NCBI RefSeq assembly: GCF_023822005.2 | Contig: NZ_CP098806.1 | Location: 620,001-684,000 of the forward strand | DNA from: Dyadobacter fanqingshengii | Lineage (GTDB): Bacteria > Bacteroidota > Bacteroidia > Cytophagales > Spirosomataceae | Direction of reading: 5' to 3' | DNA length: 64,000 nt | In this document: one piece after another, positions 53,785 to 61,490 of the stretch | Position numbering within the stretch: the stretch's first letter is position 1 | How the letters are laid out: each line of letters opens with the position of its first letter | Translations under genes and position numbers: made by a program | The notes under the pieces: generated by a model | Database searches by the model: none | What the model was told of the DNA's origin: nothing | What the model saw: only the letters and a program-made list of their open reading frames with translations

Positions 53785-55560
53785 ATGCTCATGAAATGCT
53801 GTTCTCTCCGGTCTCGTTGGCGGATCACTTTCCTTCTCTTATTTATTCTAATAGGCGGGTTTCAATCCGTCAAGGCGGTAACGGACACGACGTCTGTTGA
53901 TAGCTTACAAAGACAGATTAAGATGTTGGTGCAGGATAAGCTTTACAGTCAGGCTGCAAAGGCTTACGATTCCCTGGGTAAACTATACCATCGGCAGTAC
54001 GGGTATAATAAATACACGATGGATTCTTATCTAAGTAGTTTAAAATATTTCAGCCTGATGGGCGACTCACTCGGATATTTTAATCAGTACCTGGTGATAG
54101 GAGACTACTACAGCCAGGACTATTTCATGCACGCTTACGCTGAACAATATCTTAAAAAAGCCCAACAGTATTTTGAGCGAACCCATAACATGCCCAAAGT
54201 CATCGAATCCCGATTGGGTTTGCACAATATCGCTCACCATTTAGAACCTATGCCGCCCGGTTTGAAAACACACCTGCGTGTAACCGAGCGGCTTAGCGTA
54301 CAATACAAACAACCCTATTCTCAGGCGTATGCCCTTAGTCTGCTAGCTAATACGTACTTACTCTCCAAGCAGCCCGATTCTGCATACTATTTTGCCAGCC
54401 GAAGTCTGACCATATCAAATCAATTAAACGTTAAGTGGTTAATTGGCTTAAATCACTTTTACCTGGGCCTGGTTGAGCAATTCAAAGATCATAGTCTGGC
54501 GGCTATTGAAGCCTACCAGAAGAGCTACAACTTATCGAAGGCTGAAAATAGTCTGGGCATGATGCGGGAACTGTCGCGGCACACAGCGGATAGCTATTCT
54601 CGCACGGGCGACTATAAAAATGCATACGATTGGTCATTAAAAACGCTCGATTATACGGTGCAGTTTTACGCATCCGAACAAACAAAAAGTATTCGTTTGC
54701 AGGAACTGGATAGTCAGATCAAAACGCTGGCAGTTGAAAAACAGCTGGTTGAAGAACAAAGTCGCAATCAGAACGTATTGAATTCTGCGCTATTTATTGG
54801 CTTTATAATCAGTATTATAGGCGTATTTACACTTGCGTATCTAAGACGTCAGCAAAAATTGATTGATCATCAGCACACAGTCATCGCTCAACAACAGATT
54901 CGACAATTGGAGCTCAAATCGCTACGTGCCATGATCGAAGGTCAGGAAGGCGAACGGAGTCGGATTGCGCGTGATCTGCACGATGGCCTGGGAATACAAC
55001 TTTCCCGAATTAAACTATTCATTGAAGCGCATCAGGAAGAATTGCCTTTATCCTTCAAGGAGCCCTTGAACCAGTTTCTGGATGAAGCCTGCACCGAAAC
55101 CCGGCTGATCTCCAATGATCTGCGCCCATATGCGCTGTCAACATTCGGCCTCGTTCCAGCCCTGGAAGACCTGGTGCAAAAATTGAATCTGGTTAACAAA
55201 ACAAAGCTGATTTTAGACCATTATGGCGAGATGCCACCTTTGGGCGATGAAGCTGCCGTGATGATTTATCGTGTAGTGCAAGAGTTGCTCAATAATGCGC
55301 TGAAACACGCGCACGCCCAGGTGGTGACGGTCCAGCTGATGGTCAATGAAGAAACAACCTTAATTAGTGTAGATGACGATGGCCTGGGGGCTGATTTCGA
55401 TAATCTGCTATCTAAAGGAAGTGGAATTGCTAACATTCAGTCCCGCATTGCCTATCTCGGCGGGCATGTCATGTGGCACGGCGAAGCCGGAAAAGGAACG
55501 TCCGTAATGATTTCGTTGCCCATGCAAAAGTTACAAAAAACGGAAGTGCTTGTGGCTTGA
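53785..55560 (+). CDS. TPR-containing sensor histidine kinase (NarX-type, HisKA_3)
   Basis: 591 residues from ATG 53785 (53791 is equally possible; an upstream TTG at 53755 is not needed). Signal/TM segment at the start (ITFLLLFILIGGFQS), a periplasmic region of TPR repeats (~50-320), a membrane helix NSALFIGFIISIIGVFTLAY, then HisKA_3 with His in SRIARDLHDGLGIQLSRIK and the ATPase domain (RVVQELLNNALKHAHA, DDDGLGAD, GSGIANIQSRIAYLGG). Partner of the NarL-type regulator. Confidence 0.92.
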   Translation: MLMKCCSLRSRWRITFLLLFILIGGFQSVKAVTDTTSVDSLQRQIKMLVQDKLYSQAAKAYDSLGKLYHRQYGYNKYTMDSYLSSLKYFSLMGDSLGYFNQYLVIGDYYSQDYFMHAYAEQYLKKAQQYFERTHNMPKVIESRLGLHNIAHHLEPMPPGLKTHLRVTERLSVQYKQPYSQAYALSLLANTYLLSKQPDSAYYFASRSLTISNQLNVKWLIGLNHFYLGLVEQFKDHSLAAIEAYQKSYNLSKAENSLGMMRELSRHTADSYSRTGDYKNAYDWSLKTLDYTVQFYASEQTKSIRLQELDSQIKTLAVEKQLVEEQSRNQNVLNSALFIGFIISIIGVFTLAYLRRQQKLIDHQHTVIAQQQIRQLELKSLRAMIEGQEGERSRIARDLHDGLGIQLSRIKLFIEAHQEELPLSFKEPLNQFLDEACTETRLISNDLRPYALSTFGLVPALEDLVQKLNLVNKTKLILDHYGEMPPLGDEAAVMIYRVVQELLNNALKHAHAQVVTVQLMVNEETTLISVDDDGLGADFDNLLSKGSGIANIQSRIAYLGGHVMWHGEAGKGTSVMISLPMQKLQKTEVLVA

Positions 55561-55593: not shown

Positions 55594-55607
55594 GCGTTTT
55601 CCCTAAG
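55594..55607 (+). promoter_or_regulatory. GTTTTCCCTAAG element before the lectin-fold gene
   Basis: GCGTTTTCCCTAAG, sharing the half TTTTCCCTAAG with the element at 53008-53024. It lies 24 bp before the start codon of the next gene, a position that could also block its translation start. Confidence 0.35.
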
Positions 55608-55630
55608 TTTCAAAAAAACCTTTTTAATCT

Positions 55631-56281
55631 ATGCGTCCAGTAAGCTTTTTTCTCTTTATCGTAGCGATTGGTATTTCTATCAGCTTCACCGCCGACAATC
55701 CAACTGGTGCTTTCCAGCATAGTCAGGACATTGGCAAGCCCAAACTGGCCGGCTCATCAACTTATAATGAGGTGACCAAGGAATATAGGCTGCGAGGTTC
55801 CGGATACAACATTTGGTTTGCACGGGATGAATTTCAGTTTCTGTTCAAAAAAATGAGTGGTGATTTTACTGTAACCGCAGATTTTGAGTTTGTTGGAGCC
55901 GGTACAGATCCGCACCGAAAAGTGGGCTGGATGGTTCGTGAATCGCTGGCCGACGATGCCGCGCACATCAGTGCCGTAGCGCATGGCGATGGCTTGACCG
56001 TATTTCAGTGGCGAGTCAAAAAAGGCATGGCAATGCGTGATCCGGAAGACGAAATTTTTAGTCCCCAAAAAAATATTCAGACAATTCAGGTTGAACGCAA
56101 GGGTAATGCGTATACTATGCGGGTGGCAAAAAAAGGGGAGGCCTTACAGACCGTTGGTTCGCATCACATGCCCAACTTACCAACCCCACTTTTTGTAGGT
56201 TTGTATATCTGTTCCCATAATCCAGAAAAAATAGAAGAAGCGATCATCAGGAATGTTCAAATCGTTCAGGCTAAGCGCTGA
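55631..56281 (+). CDS. Secreted DUF1349-like (concanavalin A-fold) protein
   Basis: 216 residues with a signal peptide (end near ISFTA). The body is a beta-jelly-roll as in the DUF1349/regulation-of-enolase-1 family: DEFQFLFKKMSGDFTVTADF, KVGWMVRESLADDAAHISAV, LFVGLYICSHNPEKIEEAII. Homologues often have this domain in front of other modules; here it stands alone. Sugar binding is possible but untested. It may answer to the neighbouring two-component system. Confidence 0.8.
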   Translation: MRPVSFFLFIVAIGISISFTADNPTGAFQHSQDIGKPKLAGSSTYNEVTKEYRLRGSGYNIWFARDEFQFLFKKMSGDFTVTADFEFVGAGTDPHRKVGWMVRESLADDAAHISAVAHGDGLTVFQWRVKKGMAMRDPEDEIFSPQKNIQTIQVERKGNAYTMRVAKKGEALQTVGSHHMPNLPTPLFVGLYICSHNPEKIEEAIIRNVQIVQAKR

Positions 56282-56304
56282 CAGGGTGAAGCCCCGCGGC
56301 ACTC

Positions 56305-56500
56305 GAATTTGCCGAAGAGTTCGAAATACTGCTATTAAACAATGCCAGCCGCGTGCTAGGTATTTTGAAGTTTCCAAAGGCGGGATATTCATTAGCAAGT
56401 GCGGATGTAAGGATCGTTTTTGCAGCCGCTTTGAAAGCAATAAAGAGTTATCAGAAATTTATGAAATTATCACAAAACATTTTGAACCCAAATGGCATAA
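56305..56500 (+). pseudogene. Decayed RadC/JAB-domain fragment
   Basis: The frame reads EFAEEFEILLLNNASRVLGI, then SADVRIVFAAALKAI, and SQNILNPNG, which follow the RadC order of LLLNxANxVLGI, ADxRxIFAAALKA and the metal motif HNHPSG. The middle is damaged and the JAMM His residues are lost, so it is inert. RadC genes are frequent on mobile elements; this one lies at the 3' edge of the methyltransferase cassette. Confidence 0.6.
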
Positions 56501-57651
56501 TCAGACGTGTCATATCTAGCTTGGTCAAGAAGAGTAGATGTATTTTCAATCATAGTATTCATCACTTGTTCATCACCGGCCAGTATTTCGTCAACGTCCC
56601 GTTTTCGATGCACTCTTTTTAGTATTCTACTTGCAAAAAGACACTCACTTGGTTGGTTGAATTCTTGATTAGCTAAGCCAATCGGATCGGGCATCGCTAC
56701 ATAAGTCGGCGTGATTTTGATCGCAATGGACATTAAATCGGGTGAGTCTGCTTCCTTTGCTACTGTATATCCCAGAACATTTTTAACCTCAACTTTTGTA
56801 GGCGGGTTTTGTCTCAAGCCCGTTGTCAATATCCATTTGCAAAGCGACGTCAGAAACACATTTGTAAATCCCGTTGATTCACTGCAATAGTCCAAAAAGC
56901 TATCTTCATCAGAAACTGTAAAACATTCATTTGATGCATTAAGGAAATCTTCACAATCAGCAAGATTGTCTCTGTACACCTGTTTCAAGGTCTCAAATAC
57001 GTTAGCATCAACACATTCAGTATTGGTTCGTGTTGTAAGCATTAATAGCCAAGGATCTTGACGTTTTGCTTGCAAATACATTAAACGATACAGAGTGTTA
57101 TAATGGGTTTGTTTGAATTCATTCGCTGGCTGTTTTGCAAAACCGTCACAAAGGTCAATGTTAATTACGTCAAATGGCCCCATATTTTCAGATTTCATCC
57201 ACGCCACTGATTTTTCCAACGCGATTGCGGTAAGGTCGTCGGGTAATAAGTCAGACCCGTCGTGGATATGTGACAGCCTATTTACTTCGTCCAAAGAAAT
57301 TTCTAGCTGTGTATTATGCTCAGCACCAGGCTTCATACCTTTATTGAAACCCAAAAATTTAAGTTTTAGATTTTTAGGTATGCAAATTTTGTCATGAAAA
57401 TGTCTGAGGTCGAATAGATCATCTCCTGGCAGCCCAAGATAATTTATCGTTCCAGTTCTGGGAGGAGTTTCAGTAACTAGATCAGTGATTAAATACTCCC
57501 ACTGCTTTTCACGCACATATTGTTTTCTTGGGCGGTGCCATGGTAAAAATTCCTTCTTTTTGGGCGTATCAAAATCATAAATTGTATTTCCAATTATCCC
57601 GTCAGTTAAGTCGTCAGATATTGATGATAGAGGTTCGCTTGGATCTGTCAT
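56470..57651 (-). CDS. Uncharacterised protein of a methyltransferase-GHKL ATPase cassette
   Basis: 393 residues that I cannot place in a family with confidence. GPFDVINIDLCDGFAKQPAN, preceded by Asp/Glu-rich sequence and followed by YRLMYLQAKRQDPWLLMLTT, looks like strands 4-5 of a Rossmann-type fold, as in methyltransferases, but no SAM motif GxGxG was seen. The N-terminal 100 residues are hydrophilic (FLPWHRPRKQYVREKQWEYL). No PD-(D/E)xK, HNH or PLD motif is evident. Its ATG overlaps the TGA of the GHKL ATPase by 4 nt, so they are translated together. A nuclease or effector role would be pure inference from context. Confidence 0.75.
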   Translation of the reverse strand: MTDPSEPLSSISDDLTDGIIGNTIYDFDTPKKKEFLPWHRPRKQYVREKQWEYLITDLVTETPPRTGTINYLGLPGDDLFDLRHFHDKICIPKNLKLKFLGFNKGMKPGAEHNTQLEISLDEVNRLSHIHDGSDLLPDDLTAIALEKSVAWMKSENMGPFDVINIDLCDGFAKQPANEFKQTHYNTLYRLMYLQAKRQDPWLLMLTTRTNTECVDANVFETLKQVYRDNLADCEDFLNASNECFTVSDEDSFLDYCSESTGFTNVFLTSLCKWILTTGLRQNPPTKVEVKNVLGYTVAKEADSPDLMSIAIKITPTYVAMPDPIGLANQEFNQPSECLFASRILKRVHRKRDVDEILAGDEQVMNTMIENTSTLLDQARYDTSDYAIWVQNVL

Positions 57652-59600
57652 TCTGTGCTTTCTAATACGTTGTAAATGGCGTTAAGCAATCTGTCTTGCT
57701 GTTGCTGAGTAAGCTTTTCAAGCAGTCCAAAGGATGCTAATATTTGCGTTATAGCAATCATTTTCTCTGAATTGAACTGCGAATTGGCCGACGTACTTCT
57801 TCTGCCAATAATATTTTTAATTGGAGATTTCACAACAACAATGTCAGCACTGCTTTTTGGGACAGGCTCCTGCTGGTCTTTAATAGCTACGATTGGTGGA
57901 TTGGAAAACTCATCTTTCGACTCCCGTTGCCAAACATTAAATGCGATTTGCTGAATTTCTGTCTTTTGATGCTCAATGGATTCTCCGCGAATTCCAGATC
58001 TAACTTCGCTCGCAATTTTCTTATTAGTAGTAGCTAGTTGACGTAATGCGCTGTGCAGCCATCGAGTTAAAAATGCGGAATGTGGATGAGCGAAATTGAA
58101 GGATTCTCGATCTATATTCAAAGCGCTATCGATACCCTCGTGAACGAAAATTTCACAGGTTATTTGCTTTAATCGAGTCTGTTCTGCGATTTGATATCTA
58201 AAGAAAGTAGGATCAAATAAGGTTCCACTTGACCCATTAATACGTATTAGTGATCCCCTATGCTCAGTAGGTGCAATTTTTGGTGTCCAAAAGAGATATG
58301 CTTCAAAATCAAGTGGTCCTCCACTCAGTTCTTTTTGATAGTTATTAAATTCTTCCCTGCATTTACCAAATAAAATAAGAGGTTTTTTAAGTGCATGCCC
58401 TCCGGTAGGTAGCCCCAAATATTTGATTGGTCGGAGTAATTGCAAATCGTCAATAAAAACCTCGAAATGCTGGATTGTTGTACCTTCCTGTAAGTTCAAA
58501 ATTTCTCGAATTGGCCTATCATCTGTTTTATCAATTTCAGTTGGCTGTCCTTTAGGCTCATTGGAAATTAAATAACTGTCAGACCAATGATTTACTTGCA
58601 TGTCAAATAAATCACCTTGCACATAAGGCGCAGGAATTGCCAAGCTTAGATTCCAAACCATCTGCAGATAGTAATCAAAGAGTTTATCAAGTTGCGGATT
58701 AGGGTTAGAATTCTCCAATTCTTGCCATATGACGTCAACAAGTTTTGCAAAAGCATCGTTTGGCTTGTCTTCGGGAAGCCAAGGCACTGTACTAGTACGA
58801 TTGTTAGCTTCTCTGAAAATCTTACCTGTAGCGTCTACTTTGCCTATATGGTACTTCGGTGGTTGAAGAGCCAGATCACCTGTTACAGTGTTGTCTTCGC
58901 TTTGCTCGACAGCAGACCAAACCTCCCTGCTTTGCAGGGTATTCCGTGCTTGTGGACGGATATTATTCAAAATAATTGTAGTGCCGTGAACATCGATATC
59001 AATTGCTTTTTCACGCCAAACGGAAACTCTGCCAGATTCGAACTGATCAATATCGCTTACGATTTCTGCGGATTCATCTGAATACTGACGCAAATTAACC
59101 ACTGCAATTGTTCGAAAATTGTCACCTTTTGTCTTAGTGATAATCTGAAAGTTATAAGTCAATTGAGCAACAGAAAAAATTCCTATTCCAATTTTTCCTA
59201 TAAGTTTACGGCCATTTGGACTCAGGTCATTATCTATCTCATTCGTAATTCCGAGTGCAGCACCCTGATTGTTCCGTTTTGCACTCCCACCGATGTGCAT
59301 CAGCATATTGCCAAGCGCCTTGGGTGTCATTCCATGACCGTTGTCTTCAACTGAGATTCTAGAAAACCTTGGAGCATCAGTCTTAATCACAACCTTTGAA
59401 GCGTCCGCATCGTAGGCATTTGATATTAATTCTCGCAAGGCTGAGGCAGGTTGCCGATATATTCCATCGGTCACCCGAGCGATAACTCGCTCATCAGTCT
59501 TGAGGACTGTATAAACAACATCCTCGCTCGTTTGACTACGATTGATAGCGTCTACTAACTTATGCTCTTCGGTTTGAATAACTATTTTTGGATCAGCCAT
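57648..59600 (-). CDS. MORC/MutL-like GHKL ATPase
   Basis: 650 residues. The first ~150 carry the GHKL ATP site: N-box ALRELISNAYDADA (Asn61), G1 VEDNGHGM at 85-91, and G2 GKIGIGIFS from 135. A second S5-like domain follows (about 190-400), as in MutL, Hsp90 and MORC proteins; the rest is unassigned and ends in polar sequence. Such ATPases are known next to restriction-modification genes (Iyer, Abhiman and Aravind, 2008). It overlaps the methyltransferase gene by 8 nt and the 393-aa gene by 4 nt. Confidence 0.88.
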   Translation of the reverse strand: MADPKIVIQTEEHKLVDAINRSQTSEDVVYTVLKTDERVIARVTDGIYRQPASALRELISNAYDADASKVVIKTDAPRFSRISVEDNGHGMTPKALGNMLMHIGGSAKRNNQGAALGITNEIDNDLSPNGRKLIGKIGIGIFSVAQLTYNFQIITKTKGDNFRTIAVVNLRQYSDESAEIVSDIDQFESGRVSVWREKAIDIDVHGTTIILNNIRPQARNTLQSREVWSAVEQSEDNTVTGDLALQPPKYHIGKVDATGKIFREANNRTSTVPWLPEDKPNDAFAKLVDVIWQELENSNPNPQLDKLFDYYLQMVWNLSLAIPAPYVQGDLFDMQVNHWSDSYLISNEPKGQPTEIDKTDDRPIREILNLQEGTTIQHFEVFIDDLQLLRPIKYLGLPTGGHALKKPLILFGKCREEFNNYQKELSGGPLDFEAYLFWTPKIAPTEHRGSLIRINGSSGTLFDPTFFRYQIAEQTRLKQITCEIFVHEGIDSALNIDRESFNFAHPHSAFLTRWLHSALRQLATTNKKIASEVRSGIRGESIEHQKTEIQQIAFNVWQRESKDEFSNPPIVAIKDQQEPVPKSSADIVVVKSPIKNIIGRRSTSANSQFNSEKMIAITQILASFGLLEKLTQQQQDRLLNAIYNVLESTE

Positions 59601-60621
59601 TTCCTGATTTTTGCATTGATTTTGTTACAGCCTCAGCCAAACTTTTTGCCAGTGGCGGTGGTACTGCATTTGATATTTGCTGAACTTGTTGAGAAAGGGT
59701 TCCTTTCAAAATAAAACTCTTTGGAAATCCTTGCAATAACATTGCTTCATAGATACTGATTCTTCTTAGACCACTAGGGTGCACATGGATTTCTCTGTTT
59801 CCGAAAGCAATCGTAGGTGAAGGCTTGTCCCAATTAAGTTTACGAAAACTTCTTGATTTATTTGAATTGTCAAATGGCTGACGAAACTTTGCTGATTTCG
59901 GTTGCATTGTCCAGTGATTGGGATGCAATGGAATGTCTTCTTTCTTTAAATTTCTATGAAAAAATGCAGGCTCAATCAATTCACCTATCGTACTTTTTAC
60001 AGTGAACGTTCCCACAGTTTTTTCTGGATAAACAGGTTGATATCCTTGCCCGGATCTCAATGCGGTAACCACAATCCTATTTCTGTTTTGTGGTACGCCA
60101 AAGTCATGAGCACATAATTCTTTTTCACTCAAATCAAAATCTAATTCTTTCAAGCCTTTGATTAAATCCAGATATTTAACTGTATGCTTTTTGTCTTTCA
60201 TACCTAAAACATTCTCAAAGACAACAAATTCAACAATGTAGTGTTTTTTAAGTTCTTCAATTATTTGAATATAAAGACGCGGTAATAAGTTGCGTGGGTC
60301 GTCTGGTTTAGAAGACGGGTTTGCTCTTGAAAAGCCTTGGCACGGTGGTCCGCCAATTATACCGATTCTTCCGCCCTTTGGAATTGTTTCAAGAGCGTAG
60401 TTTAATACACCTTTTGGACCTATTTTGGAAAGGTCTGCCACAACGCCACTAGCAGATTCGAAGTTGAATTTATGAGTTTCGATAGCTGACGCGTCATTAT
60501 CAATGGCCAAGGCAATTTTGTAGCCTTCTTCTTGAAAGCCCAAATCTAGCCCACCTGCTCCACTGAAAAGACTGATTATCAAAGGTTTACGTATTTCTTT
60601 ATGCACTCTGGTTGTATTCAT
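59593..60621 (-). CDS. C5-cytosine DNA methyltransferase
   Basis: Transfers a methyl group from SAM to C5 of cytosine in a specific DNA site. 342 residues with all main motifs in order: motif I LFSGAGGLDLGF, motif IV GGPPCQGF with catalytic Cys94, motif VI FENV (136-138), motif VIII QNRNR (178-182), a short target-recognition region of about 100 residues, and motif X ISNAVPPPLA. Complete and probably active. The target sequence is unknown. Upstream gene of three overlapping ones; an XRE gene sits 211 bp further upstream on the same strand. Confidence 0.95.
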   Translation of the reverse strand: MNTTRVHKEIRKPLIISLFSGAGGLDLGFQEEGYKIALAIDNDASAIETHKFNFESASGVVADLSKIGPKGVLNYALETIPKGGRIGIIGGPPCQGFSRANPSSKPDDPRNLLPRLYIQIIEELKKHYIVEFVVFENVLGMKDKKHTVKYLDLIKGLKELDFDLSEKELCAHDFGVPQNRNRIVVTALRSGQGYQPVYPEKTVGTFTVKSTIGELIEPAFFHRNLKKEDIPLHPNHWTMQPKSAKFRQPFDNSNKSRSFRKLNWDKPSPTIAFGNREIHVHPSGLRRISIYEAMLLQGFPKSFILKGTLSQQVQQISNAVPPPLAKSLAEAVTKSMQKSGNG

Positions 60622-60832
60622 ATTAAATTAGTTCACAGCGTTGAAACAAGCCGCCATAAGTTTGTAATATAGACATTGTAGCTAGACGATGCTGTATTCA
60701 TTTATCAAATAAACTGTCGGGATGTTGCAAGTTACTTTTTACAAAATCTTAAAAGCTGATTGCAAGGCTTTTAATGGGCGAGACAGCCTCTACTAAATTA
60801 TTTTACGGCAAATAAATGCTTTTGTATCTGAT

Positions 60833-61246
60833 CTACCTCCCCCCAATCAACCGCTCCAACCGCTCCATCATCTCATCCTTCTCCTTCAACATTCTTTCAT
60901 ACAAGGCAATTTTTTCCTCATGAAGCTGAATAAGCTTTTCAAACGGATGAATGTGAATAGTGCCGTGATTATAGGAATTGTCATTGAAAGTACTCGCAAT
61001 AATGTTTACCGCCTTCTCCTCGTCAAAATTCCGAATCGCCTCAGCCGGAATTTTGAGAATAGCTGAAACCTGCTCCAAAATATCAGCATCAATCTTTTCC
61101 TTCTGTTCGAGCAATGAGATTTTCTGCTGGTTCCATTCTTCGCCGAGCTCAAACGCAAGGAAATCTTGTTTGATCCCGAGCATTTCTCGAAATCTTTTAA
61201 GGTTGCGGCCTTCGTGGATCTTTGGATTGGAGGTAGTATGTGTCAT
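60833..61246 (-). CDS. XRE-type helix-turn-helix regulator with coiled-coil tail
   Basis: 137 residues from ATG 61246 (a start nine codons upstream is possible). An N-terminal HTH_3 (NLKRFREMLGIKQDFLAFEL, QQKISLLEQKE) is followed by a helical region and a C-terminal coiled coil rich in Glu/Lys (EEKIALYERMLKEKDEMMER). The form is common in Bacteroidota. It lies upstream of the methyltransferase operon on the same strand and is a candidate controller (C-type) of it, though similar genes also occur elsewhere. Confidence 0.87.
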   Translation of the reverse strand: MTHTTSNPKIHEGRNLKRFREMLGIKQDFLAFELGEEWNQQKISLLEQKEKIDADILEQVSAILKIPAEAIRNFDEEKAVNIIASTFNDNSYNHGTIHIHPFEKLIQLHEEKIALYERMLKEKDEMMERLERLIGGR

Positions 61247-61382
61247 ACAGAGACGGTTTTTGTTAAAAGGCAATTTATATAAATCCTTTCGGAAGTTCAG
61301 GTATATTTTACTGGCCAGGCAATGTAAGTTACCGGTTTCGGATTGTTGGGTATGTTTTTCGGGATTATGTGCTTTGCAGAAA

Positions 61383-61490
61383 ACGGAAATTCAGGAAGCT
61401 GGCTATGATCCGCGCGGACATAATCGGTTCGTAAGTTTTAAGGAGCTGGTGTTCTTCTTCAGGGATGTAGGGGCGATGACGAAGAAATGA
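61383..61490 (+). pseudogene. Short gene remnant with a protein-like C-terminus
   Basis: An open stretch ending in AGYDPRGHNRFVSFKELVFF and RDVGAMTKK then a stop. It reads like a true protein end but has no start and no family that I can name. Upstream the frame runs antisense through the XRE gene. Probably a leftover of a deleted gene at the cassette boundary. Confidence 0.35.

Follow-up and report, generated by a model that had tools for sequence, protein, structure and literature searches.

We examined a 64,000-nucleotide stretch of the Dyadobacter fanqingshengii genome (contig NZ_CP098806.1, positions 620,001 to 684,000; hereafter the window), in which three consecutive minus-strand genes encode a C5 cytosine DNA methyltransferase, a GHKL ATPase and a protein of 393 aa (Table 1). 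An earlier note on this DNA, made from the sequence alone, had grouped these genes with an upstream XRE regulator as a compact defense or epigenetic module. The coordinates of the open reading frames confirm the overlaps of 8 and 4 nt that it reported, which lie at positions 59593-59600 (ATPase and methyltransferase) and 57648-57651 (393-aa protein and ATPase). The methyltransferase start is separated by 211 nt from the XRE reading frame, which runs from 61246 to 60833 and encodes 137 aa from its ATG, or 146 aa if started at a TTG at 61273. Scans for promoters and terminators gave numbers near those of shuffled sequence (17 against 14.3, standard deviation 4.3, and 7 against 4.3, standard deviation 2.3).

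The 342-aa protein belongs to the C5 cytosine DNA methyltransferases by both its PF00145 match and its conserved motifs (GPPCQ at residues 91-95, ENV at 136 and QNRNR at 178), and the complete motif set with Cys94 described earlier is indeed present. It also matches the PADLOC models DrmMII and DruM, as C5-methyltransferases in general may. The ATPase matches HATPase_c_3 in Pfam (3.7e-17) and carries the N-box, DNGHGM and GKIGIGIFS motifs read from it before; across 94 aligned members its key ATP-site residues vary little or not at all. The 393-aa protein had been called unknown, a label that no longer applies: it is a member of the NCBIfam family NF047698, "PP_RS20740 family", scoring 430.4 bits (cut-off 200) across positions 1-384 of 384. 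A protein database yielded 502 proteins at E ≤ 0.001, of which 120 were listed. Scans of four proteins (the cassette and XRE) with Pfam, PADLOC and NCBIfam recognized no nuclease domain, as the earlier note had proposed; for the methyltransferase this covers the best 25 of 59 PADLOC families. Models named REase_II (PADLOC), NF050001 and MutL matched the ATPase over its GHKL part only, within residues 34-221.

Table 1. Positions of the cassette genes and of the features that surround them in the window
Feature	Position	Strand	Description
C5 cytosine DNA methyltransferase	59593..60621	-	342 aa, motifs intact, Cys94; PF00145 9.1e-53, GPPCQ/ENV/QNRNR
GHKL ATPase	57648..59600	-	650 aa; GHKL part to ~236, probable S5/middle-type domain ~380-490, predicted long helix 506-561 and helical C-terminus; no nuclease recognized
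393-aa PP_RS20740-family protein	56470..57651	-	NF047698, 430.4 bits; predicted class I methyltransferase-like fold (AlphaFold2 predicted local distance difference test score, pLDDT, 91.8), atypical S-adenosylmethionine-site positions
Segment exchanged relative to genome G411	56283..60831		Different DNA occupies this site in G411; GC 0.394 against 0.452 in both flanks
XRE regulator	60833..61246	-	Constant gene of the site, outside the cassette; member of a many-copy family in the genus
DNA block (short upstream stretch and XRE gene)	60833..61335	-	Common to the window and 44 other XRE places

Conservation of the ATPase and its partner

We collected 57 genome loci by scanning species genomes with a profile of the 393-aa protein. 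Their record titles span several phyla and, located as they were with two peptide patterns, they under-sample unusual relatives. In 55 loci the 393-aa gene is immediately preceded, on the same strand, by the ATPase gene; the other two (L045 and L058) are truncated at contig ends. The commonest junctions among the 55 are overlaps of 4 nt (22 loci) and 1 nt (nine loci). When viral contigs were searched from the ATPase side, the 393-aa gene was directly downstream in 18 of 18 loci, a set that includes near-duplicates and has eight contigs in common with the ten found with the 393-aa profile. Because this gene order recurs in 55 of 57 loci of several phyla, we conclude that it is more than chance. 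Homologues routinely found apart, which the earlier note had named as grounds for giving up the cassette, were not what we saw for the pair in either set.

A C5-methyltransferase adjoins the pair in all 18 viral loci, upstream in 16 and downstream and convergent in two. In the genome set it fell within the fetched DNA of 46 of the 57 loci, adjoining the pair in 39 and lying further off in seven. The adjoining genes show the same two positions: 26 are upstream on the same strand and 13 are downstream and convergent, with a Vsr-cluster gene intervening in one of the 13. Of the 11 loci without a C5-methyltransferase, seven are truncated on one side by a contig end. Over 48 complete triples, the Spearman correlation of identities was 0.72 for ATPase and 393-aa protein, against 0.39 for methyltransferase and ATPase and 0.48 for methyltransferase and 393-aa protein. 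Because of these correlations, and because loci L012 and L014 have similar pairs (72% identity for the ATPase, 63% for the 393-aa protein) with methyltransferases only 28% identical, we regard the pair as constant and the methyltransferase as exchangeable. Judged by these identities, methyltransferases of different lineages partner similar pairs.

Among the neighbors of the 57 loci, 20 proteins were named with Pfam, a sample in which other nearby nucleases may be missed. No cognate endonuclease of a type II restriction-modification system was recognized among the four window proteins, to which the search was confined; elsewhere, locus L031 has the order C5-methyltransferase, NgoMIV-type endonuclease, ATPase, 393-aa gene and Vsr-cluster gene. 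An HNH gene lies upstream of the pair in L021, and a NOV_C gene adjoins it, also upstream, in L020. Clustering placed a Vsr-cluster gene in seven of the 57 loci, of which one member, in L018, was confirmed as Vsr with Pfam. The NOV_C proteins of L016 and L020 we take to be nuclease-like. Loci L020 and L021, which have the pair and a NOV_C or HNH gene and no C5-methyltransferase in the fetched DNA, possibly represent a modification-dependent variant. In two Nocardioides genomes (L016 and L019), open reading frames of 539/485 aa (without a Pfam match in L016), a member of an SNF2 helicase cluster and a NOV_C-cluster protein adjoin the pair, and the C5-methyltransferase is 8-10 kb off; this arrangement may represent a larger version of the system.

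In the window's phylum, the 393-aa family exceeded its cut-off in one of 395 genomes (three matched at E ≤ 0.001, two of them weakly). The ATPase was found at E ≤ 1e-40 in one of 395, both single genomes being the window's own. The 393-aa gene is full-length in one of 48 genomes of the genus, again the window's own, and we count this patchy occurrence in favor of the defense model given below. A fragment in genome G438 (L114, C15:10184-10348) corresponds to residues 336-390 at 40% identity and contains one stop. A 308-aa distant relative (58.7 bits, below the cut-off) is encoded at 1426-2352 of locus L070 in genome G364, where the upstream reading frame is cut by the locus edge and has no match to the ATPase profile.

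An exchangeable chromosomal site

We compared the window with other genomes of the genus. In four of them (G411, G402, G409 and G426) both flanks match the window and XRE is retained, whereas the DNA adjoining it differs. The left edge of the common flank is at 56282 in G411 and G402, at 56441 in G409 (with a gap at 55605-56163) and at 55527 in G426, and the right edge of the exchanged segment is at 60832-60854. In place of the cassette, G411 has a gene for a 1047-aa KAP NTPase, and G402 has small genes together with a convergent SMODS nucleotidyltransferase and NARF protein, which is a cyclic oligonucleotide-based antiphage signaling system (CBASS) type arrangement. From its sequence, we take a gene at this site in G409 to be of DUF1016 type. 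In G400, for which the right flank only was compared, the site holds AbiH. The exchanged unit is therefore three genes, with XRE excluded. We rejected XRE as the cassette's own regulator, a role the earlier note had given it, because it is constant at the site in relatives that hold other genes and belongs to a many-copy family.

The XRE family has at least one match in 43 of 48 genomes of the genus, ten or more in three of them and up to 13. We compared 44 places (43 distinct, L111 and L164 being an identical place; examples are L108-L111 and L127-L166), each against the window DNA. The common block begins 13 to 150 bp upstream of the XRE start, which puts its upstream edge at ~61259 to 61396. 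Its other edge falls close to the XRE stop codon, from 21 nt before the end of that codon to 8 nt past it. In 33 of the 44 places, the next open reading frame of at least 90 aa after XRE is on the same strand. The family resembles a dispersed head module whose cargo, often of defense or toxin-antitoxin type, can be exchanged.

To characterize the cargo we used 75 proteins, namely 72 of 80 listed (eight were left out by hand) and three convergent genes of L109 that were added since they had already been recognized as CBASS-type, so that the set is not an unbiased draw. As a control from the other side of XRE we used 75 of 83 genes, leaving out seven flank genes common to the window's site and one other. 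The cargo matched 157 PADLOC families, a count that is inflated by overlapping models and is not a count of proteins; among the best 25, five members matched PDC-S09 models and four matched PDC-S02 models. In Pfam it matched 58 families, and the best 25 included nucleotidyltransferase (five members), DUF1016/YhcG nuclease (four) and HepT (four). HigB (two), zeta toxin (two), AAA_13, PIN_8 and one C5-methyltransferase were also found. AbiH, DUF1016/YhcG nuclease and toxin-antitoxin genes are present at other XRE places, as is a methyltransferase with HNH in L163, where a C5-methyltransferase is followed by an HNH gene. The control genes matched seven PADLOC families, none in more than two members, and their Pfam matches, among those listed, were led by AraC-type regulators and metabolic enzymes. 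Since the cargo is often of defense or toxin-antitoxin type and few PADLOC matches lie on the other side, the site supports a defense or toxin-antitoxin role for its contents.

Two further observations concern the XRE gene. In L128 and L157, a second copy of its 3' end (64-68 nt, with 83% and 94% identity) lies ~624-692 nt past the XRE stop, beyond a gene for 107 aa, as if cargo had entered at the XRE 3' end and left a direct repeat; no such second copy was seen in the window. The D. fanqingshengii genome itself has a second XRE copy (L127, C1:3845000-3854500), followed on the same strand by open reading frames of 161, 114 and 687 aa.

The cassette also occurs beside integrases. In the set of ten virus-like contigs found with the 393-aa profile, six have an integrase next to the cassette: it is directly upstream of the methyltransferase in L079-L083 and, in L087, just downstream of the 393-aa gene. 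PHROGs identified the integrases of L079 and L082, and those of L080, L081 and L083 were assigned by their similarity to L079. A second C5-methyltransferase lies on the opposite strand beyond the cassette in viral contigs L081, L083 and L087. Together with the exchange at the chromosomal site, the integrase neighbors support the earlier idea of a self-contained, inserted module, now as a mobile three-gene unit. Location beside integrases in prophages could also mean that the cassette serves its carrier, the methyltransferase shielding a phage or island from host restriction and the pair silencing or condensing DNA for lysogeny or gene control. In support of such an activity, MORC-1 of C. elegans reportedly entraps and condenses DNA (PMC8277788). 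The window cassette, however, occupies a chromosomal site that in relatives holds CBASS- and KAP-type genes, and we consider service to the carrier very unlikely.

Predicted folds of the ATPase and the 393-aa protein

The predicted fold of the ATPase matches HSP90, MORC, topoVI-B and MutL. Its two HATPase matches overlap at the N-terminus, and no second HATPase domain was seen. Judging from the model and its fold matches, the protein probably contains an S5-type domain; in the model, the long helix is followed by further helices and the C-terminus is mostly helical. A nuclease in the C-terminus was rejected on account of this mostly helical model and because no invariant residue occurs after K527 in the alignment of 94 members. 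The motif LN[LVI]xRE, which we take to be that of HSP90, is present in 89 of the 94. With intact GHKL motifs, a putative S5-type domain and a restriction-modification neighborhood, the ATPase is a paraMORC in the broad sense, an assignment made above the level of the families paraMORC1-5. The earlier description "MORC-like" holds for architecture and predicted fold but not for the MORC S5 motif (GhXhhpXXRhl; Iyer et al.), which occurs in none of the 94 members, the window protein included.

Two known nuclease architectures were compared with the ATPase. The GHKL-Shedu type I-D protein VcSduA is likewise a GHKL ATPase, in a demonstrated antiphage protein whose architecture was formerly annotated paraMORC3 (PMC12137116). 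It differs in its C-terminal DUF4263 nuclease, a restriction-endonuclease fold with an E-D-ExK motif: Pfam gave no match outside the GHKL part of the cassette ATPase, no nuclease was recognized in it, and it has two partner genes. The BbrUII/HgiDII restriction enzymes (NF050001) have an N-terminal GHKL domain as well, but the cassette ATPase reaches only 68.1 bits against a cut-off of 550, over residues 47-221 only. Over 247 genomes, that profile gave some match in 245, of which three exceeded the cut-off and most others were short GHKL matches. No paper listed in an open-access search carried the name HgiDII.

For the 393-aa protein, the AlphaFold2 model has a seven-stranded Rossmann-like fold of class I methyltransferases, and its fold matches are methyltransferases. 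A PDB sequence search returned three weak matches (best E 0.24); Pfam, at E ≤ 10, matched none of five family members, and PF28273.1, precomputed for this family elsewhere, gives no match in the Pfam copy used. Class I methyltransferases bind S-adenosylmethionine through a glycine-rich motif I and a conserved acid after strand 2. In the 393-aa family (n = 55) the sequence LPGxDxxD stands where that loop would have glycines (GxGxG), and position 103 varies (N27 D9 C8 I4). The S-adenosylmethionine-site positions thus look atypical in the model. The LPG loop may be compared with that of KsgA/FtsJ-like enzymes, and KDKE-type catalysis is a further conceivable parallel. Conserved instead after strands 1 and 4 are D78 and D81 (54/55 each), N164 and D166 (55/55) and C168 (54/55), and H39, K43 and R47 near the N-terminus are invariant.

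These conserved residues, together with the LPGxDxxD sequence, would suit a true restriction-modification system with a cryptic nuclease, in which the 393-aa protein or its interface with the ATPase cuts by means of a metal site on the methyltransferase-like scaffold. We know of no nuclease with such a fold, and none is among the structure matches shown for the model, a weak negative that does not exclude one. In addition, some relatives adjoin separate nuclease genes, and a site-specific cutter sits uneasily with a methyltransferase that is exchangeable among similar pairs. A cryptic nuclease is therefore unlikely, yet it stays a live rival because a preprint title now calls PglZ of the bacteriophage exclusion (BREX) system a metal-dependent nuclease.

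The arrangement of C5-methyltransferase, GHKL protein and third protein recalls the loci of a methyltransferase, HEF_HK and Response_reg_2, some with Vsr nearby, reported by Bellieny-Rabelo et al. 2021 (PMC8011034). By this parallel, the ATPase would be a kinase and the 393-aa protein its response regulator in two-component-like signaling. We rejected a Response_reg_2 identity for the 393-aa protein: hhalign gave its family a probability of 0.1% against six Response_reg_2 proteins, and PF19192 was among the families that Pfam did not match. Its fold matches are instead methyltransferases, and the ATPase shows no second HATPase domain, which makes signaling extremely improbable.

A defense model and its rivals

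We hypothesized that the cassette is a mobile three-gene defense (exclusion) module marked by 5-methylcytosine, with the ATPase and the 393-aa protein as effector. This is our preferred reading, held tentatively and at close to an even balance. It draws on what was computed here: the gene identities, the conserved pairing, the C5-methyltransferase link, the prophage and hotspot locations, the predicted folds and the lack of a recognized cassette nuclease. Defense as the function of the cassette is probable from its genomic context. The methyltransferase would mark its own sites in the host genome. A dimer of the GHKL ATPase would act as an ATP-gated clamp, with an N-gate of HSP90/MORC/MutL type, the S5 domain and the long helix, and its obligate partner, the methyltransferase-fold protein, would read DNA or its modification state rather than serve as a canonical methylase. 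On unmarked DNA the complex would close, blocking or condensing it and stopping replication or expression. From the predicted folds, the reading role is somewhat doubtful and clamping or exclusion as the effector step is more clearly so. Epigenetic immunity without cutting, in which a 5-methylcytosine mark, a MORC-type clamp and a methyltransferase-fold reader that has lost canonical S-adenosylmethionine binding would be combined, is rather unlikely as a whole.

The model has precedents in part. DISARM (defense island system associated with restriction-modification) has a 5-methylcytosine methyltransferase, and like the cassette, BREX and DISARM would pair methyltransferase-marked exclusion with a multi-protein effector; they may differ in that no PglZ, BrxC, DrmA or DrmB is among the PADLOC matches listed for the four proteins, the part of the window covered by that scan. 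The outcome we propose may be likened to that of BREX, which inhibits phage DNA replication according to a published abstract. Iyer, Abhiman and Aravind (2008; PMC2292703) predicted MORC and paraMORC ATPases in bacterial restriction-modification, as the source of eukaryotic MORCs, and proposed that they loop DNA between recognition and cleavage sites. Their operons resemble the cassette in joining an ATPase with GHKL and S5-type domains to mostly cytosine DNA methylases, in being laterally mobile and in sometimes lying beside Vsr, HNH or SNF2 genes. The cassette family differs in its lack of the MORC S5 motif and in its constant methyltransferase-fold partner. Among the few neighbors named, L016 alone had a helicase (SNF2) beside the pair, and clustering placed a relative of it in L019. 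The cleavage partner was not seen in the cassette. We regard the cassette as a variant of the MORC/paraMORC-linked restriction-modification theme predicted in 2008.

The association with C5-methyltransferases could also be explained if the MutL-like ATPase and the 393-aa protein were a repair companion that handles T:G mismatches left by 5-methylcytosine deamination at the methylated sites, with or without Vsr. The methyltransferase link in 46 of 57 loci, the confirmed Vsr of L018 and MutL among the ATPase fold matches are consistent with repair. However, 50 of 57 loci have no Vsr-cluster gene among their clustered neighbors, the cassette is swapped for defense-type genes at the hotspot and lies beside integrases in phages, and the ATPases carry the motif we associate with HSP90. 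Repair is thus quite unlikely.

Several results weigh against the defense model. Four loci (L015, L020, L021 and L048) have DNA on both sides yet no C5-methyltransferase, and therefore the pair may not always need one. The correlation between methyltransferase and pair distances is only moderate (0.39 and 0.48), and both methyltransferase activity and the reading of methylation by the pair are predictions from sequence. The Vsr-cluster genes of seven loci also fit repair. The last 120 residues of the ATPase were modeled within the whole protein only. The XRE cargo also includes an aldo/keto reductase, an alpha/beta hydrolase and a PKD domain (one member each), and two Uma2 genes are among the genes of the other side. 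Searches of 72,556 plasmid and 50,697 phage records returned no cassette match, which is unexpected for a widespread defense system and argues against very wide spread. Given the preprint title on PglZ, BREX is no longer plainly nuclease-free. Finally, according to the one paper found to name PP_RS20740, a V338F change in this protein arose in furfural-adapted Pseudomonas putida, where overexpression of the mutant improved growth (PMC9630843); a mutation from a furfural-adapted rather than a phage-resistant strain is not explained by a defense role.

Taken together, of the module that the earlier note proposed, the mobile three-gene unit, its defense-like setting and the lack of a recognized nuclease stand, but XRE does not belong to it. 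Its view that the mechanism was undescribed agrees with our search of an open-access library that excludes subscription articles and most preprints: none of the papers listed describes, in its title or the opening of its abstract, the three-gene system or XRE-anchored sites, and no tested example of a nuclease-less MORC or paraMORC system was among them. The swappable XRE-anchored sites of the genus are a place to look for further defense genes. For the cassette, the question is reduced to three genes that can be moved into laboratory E. coli, with the residues to change named. If phage were excluded without cutting, bacterial immunity would be linked to the methylation-linked MORC silencing of eukaryotes, of which the cassette, if the model is true, would be a bacterial counterpart.

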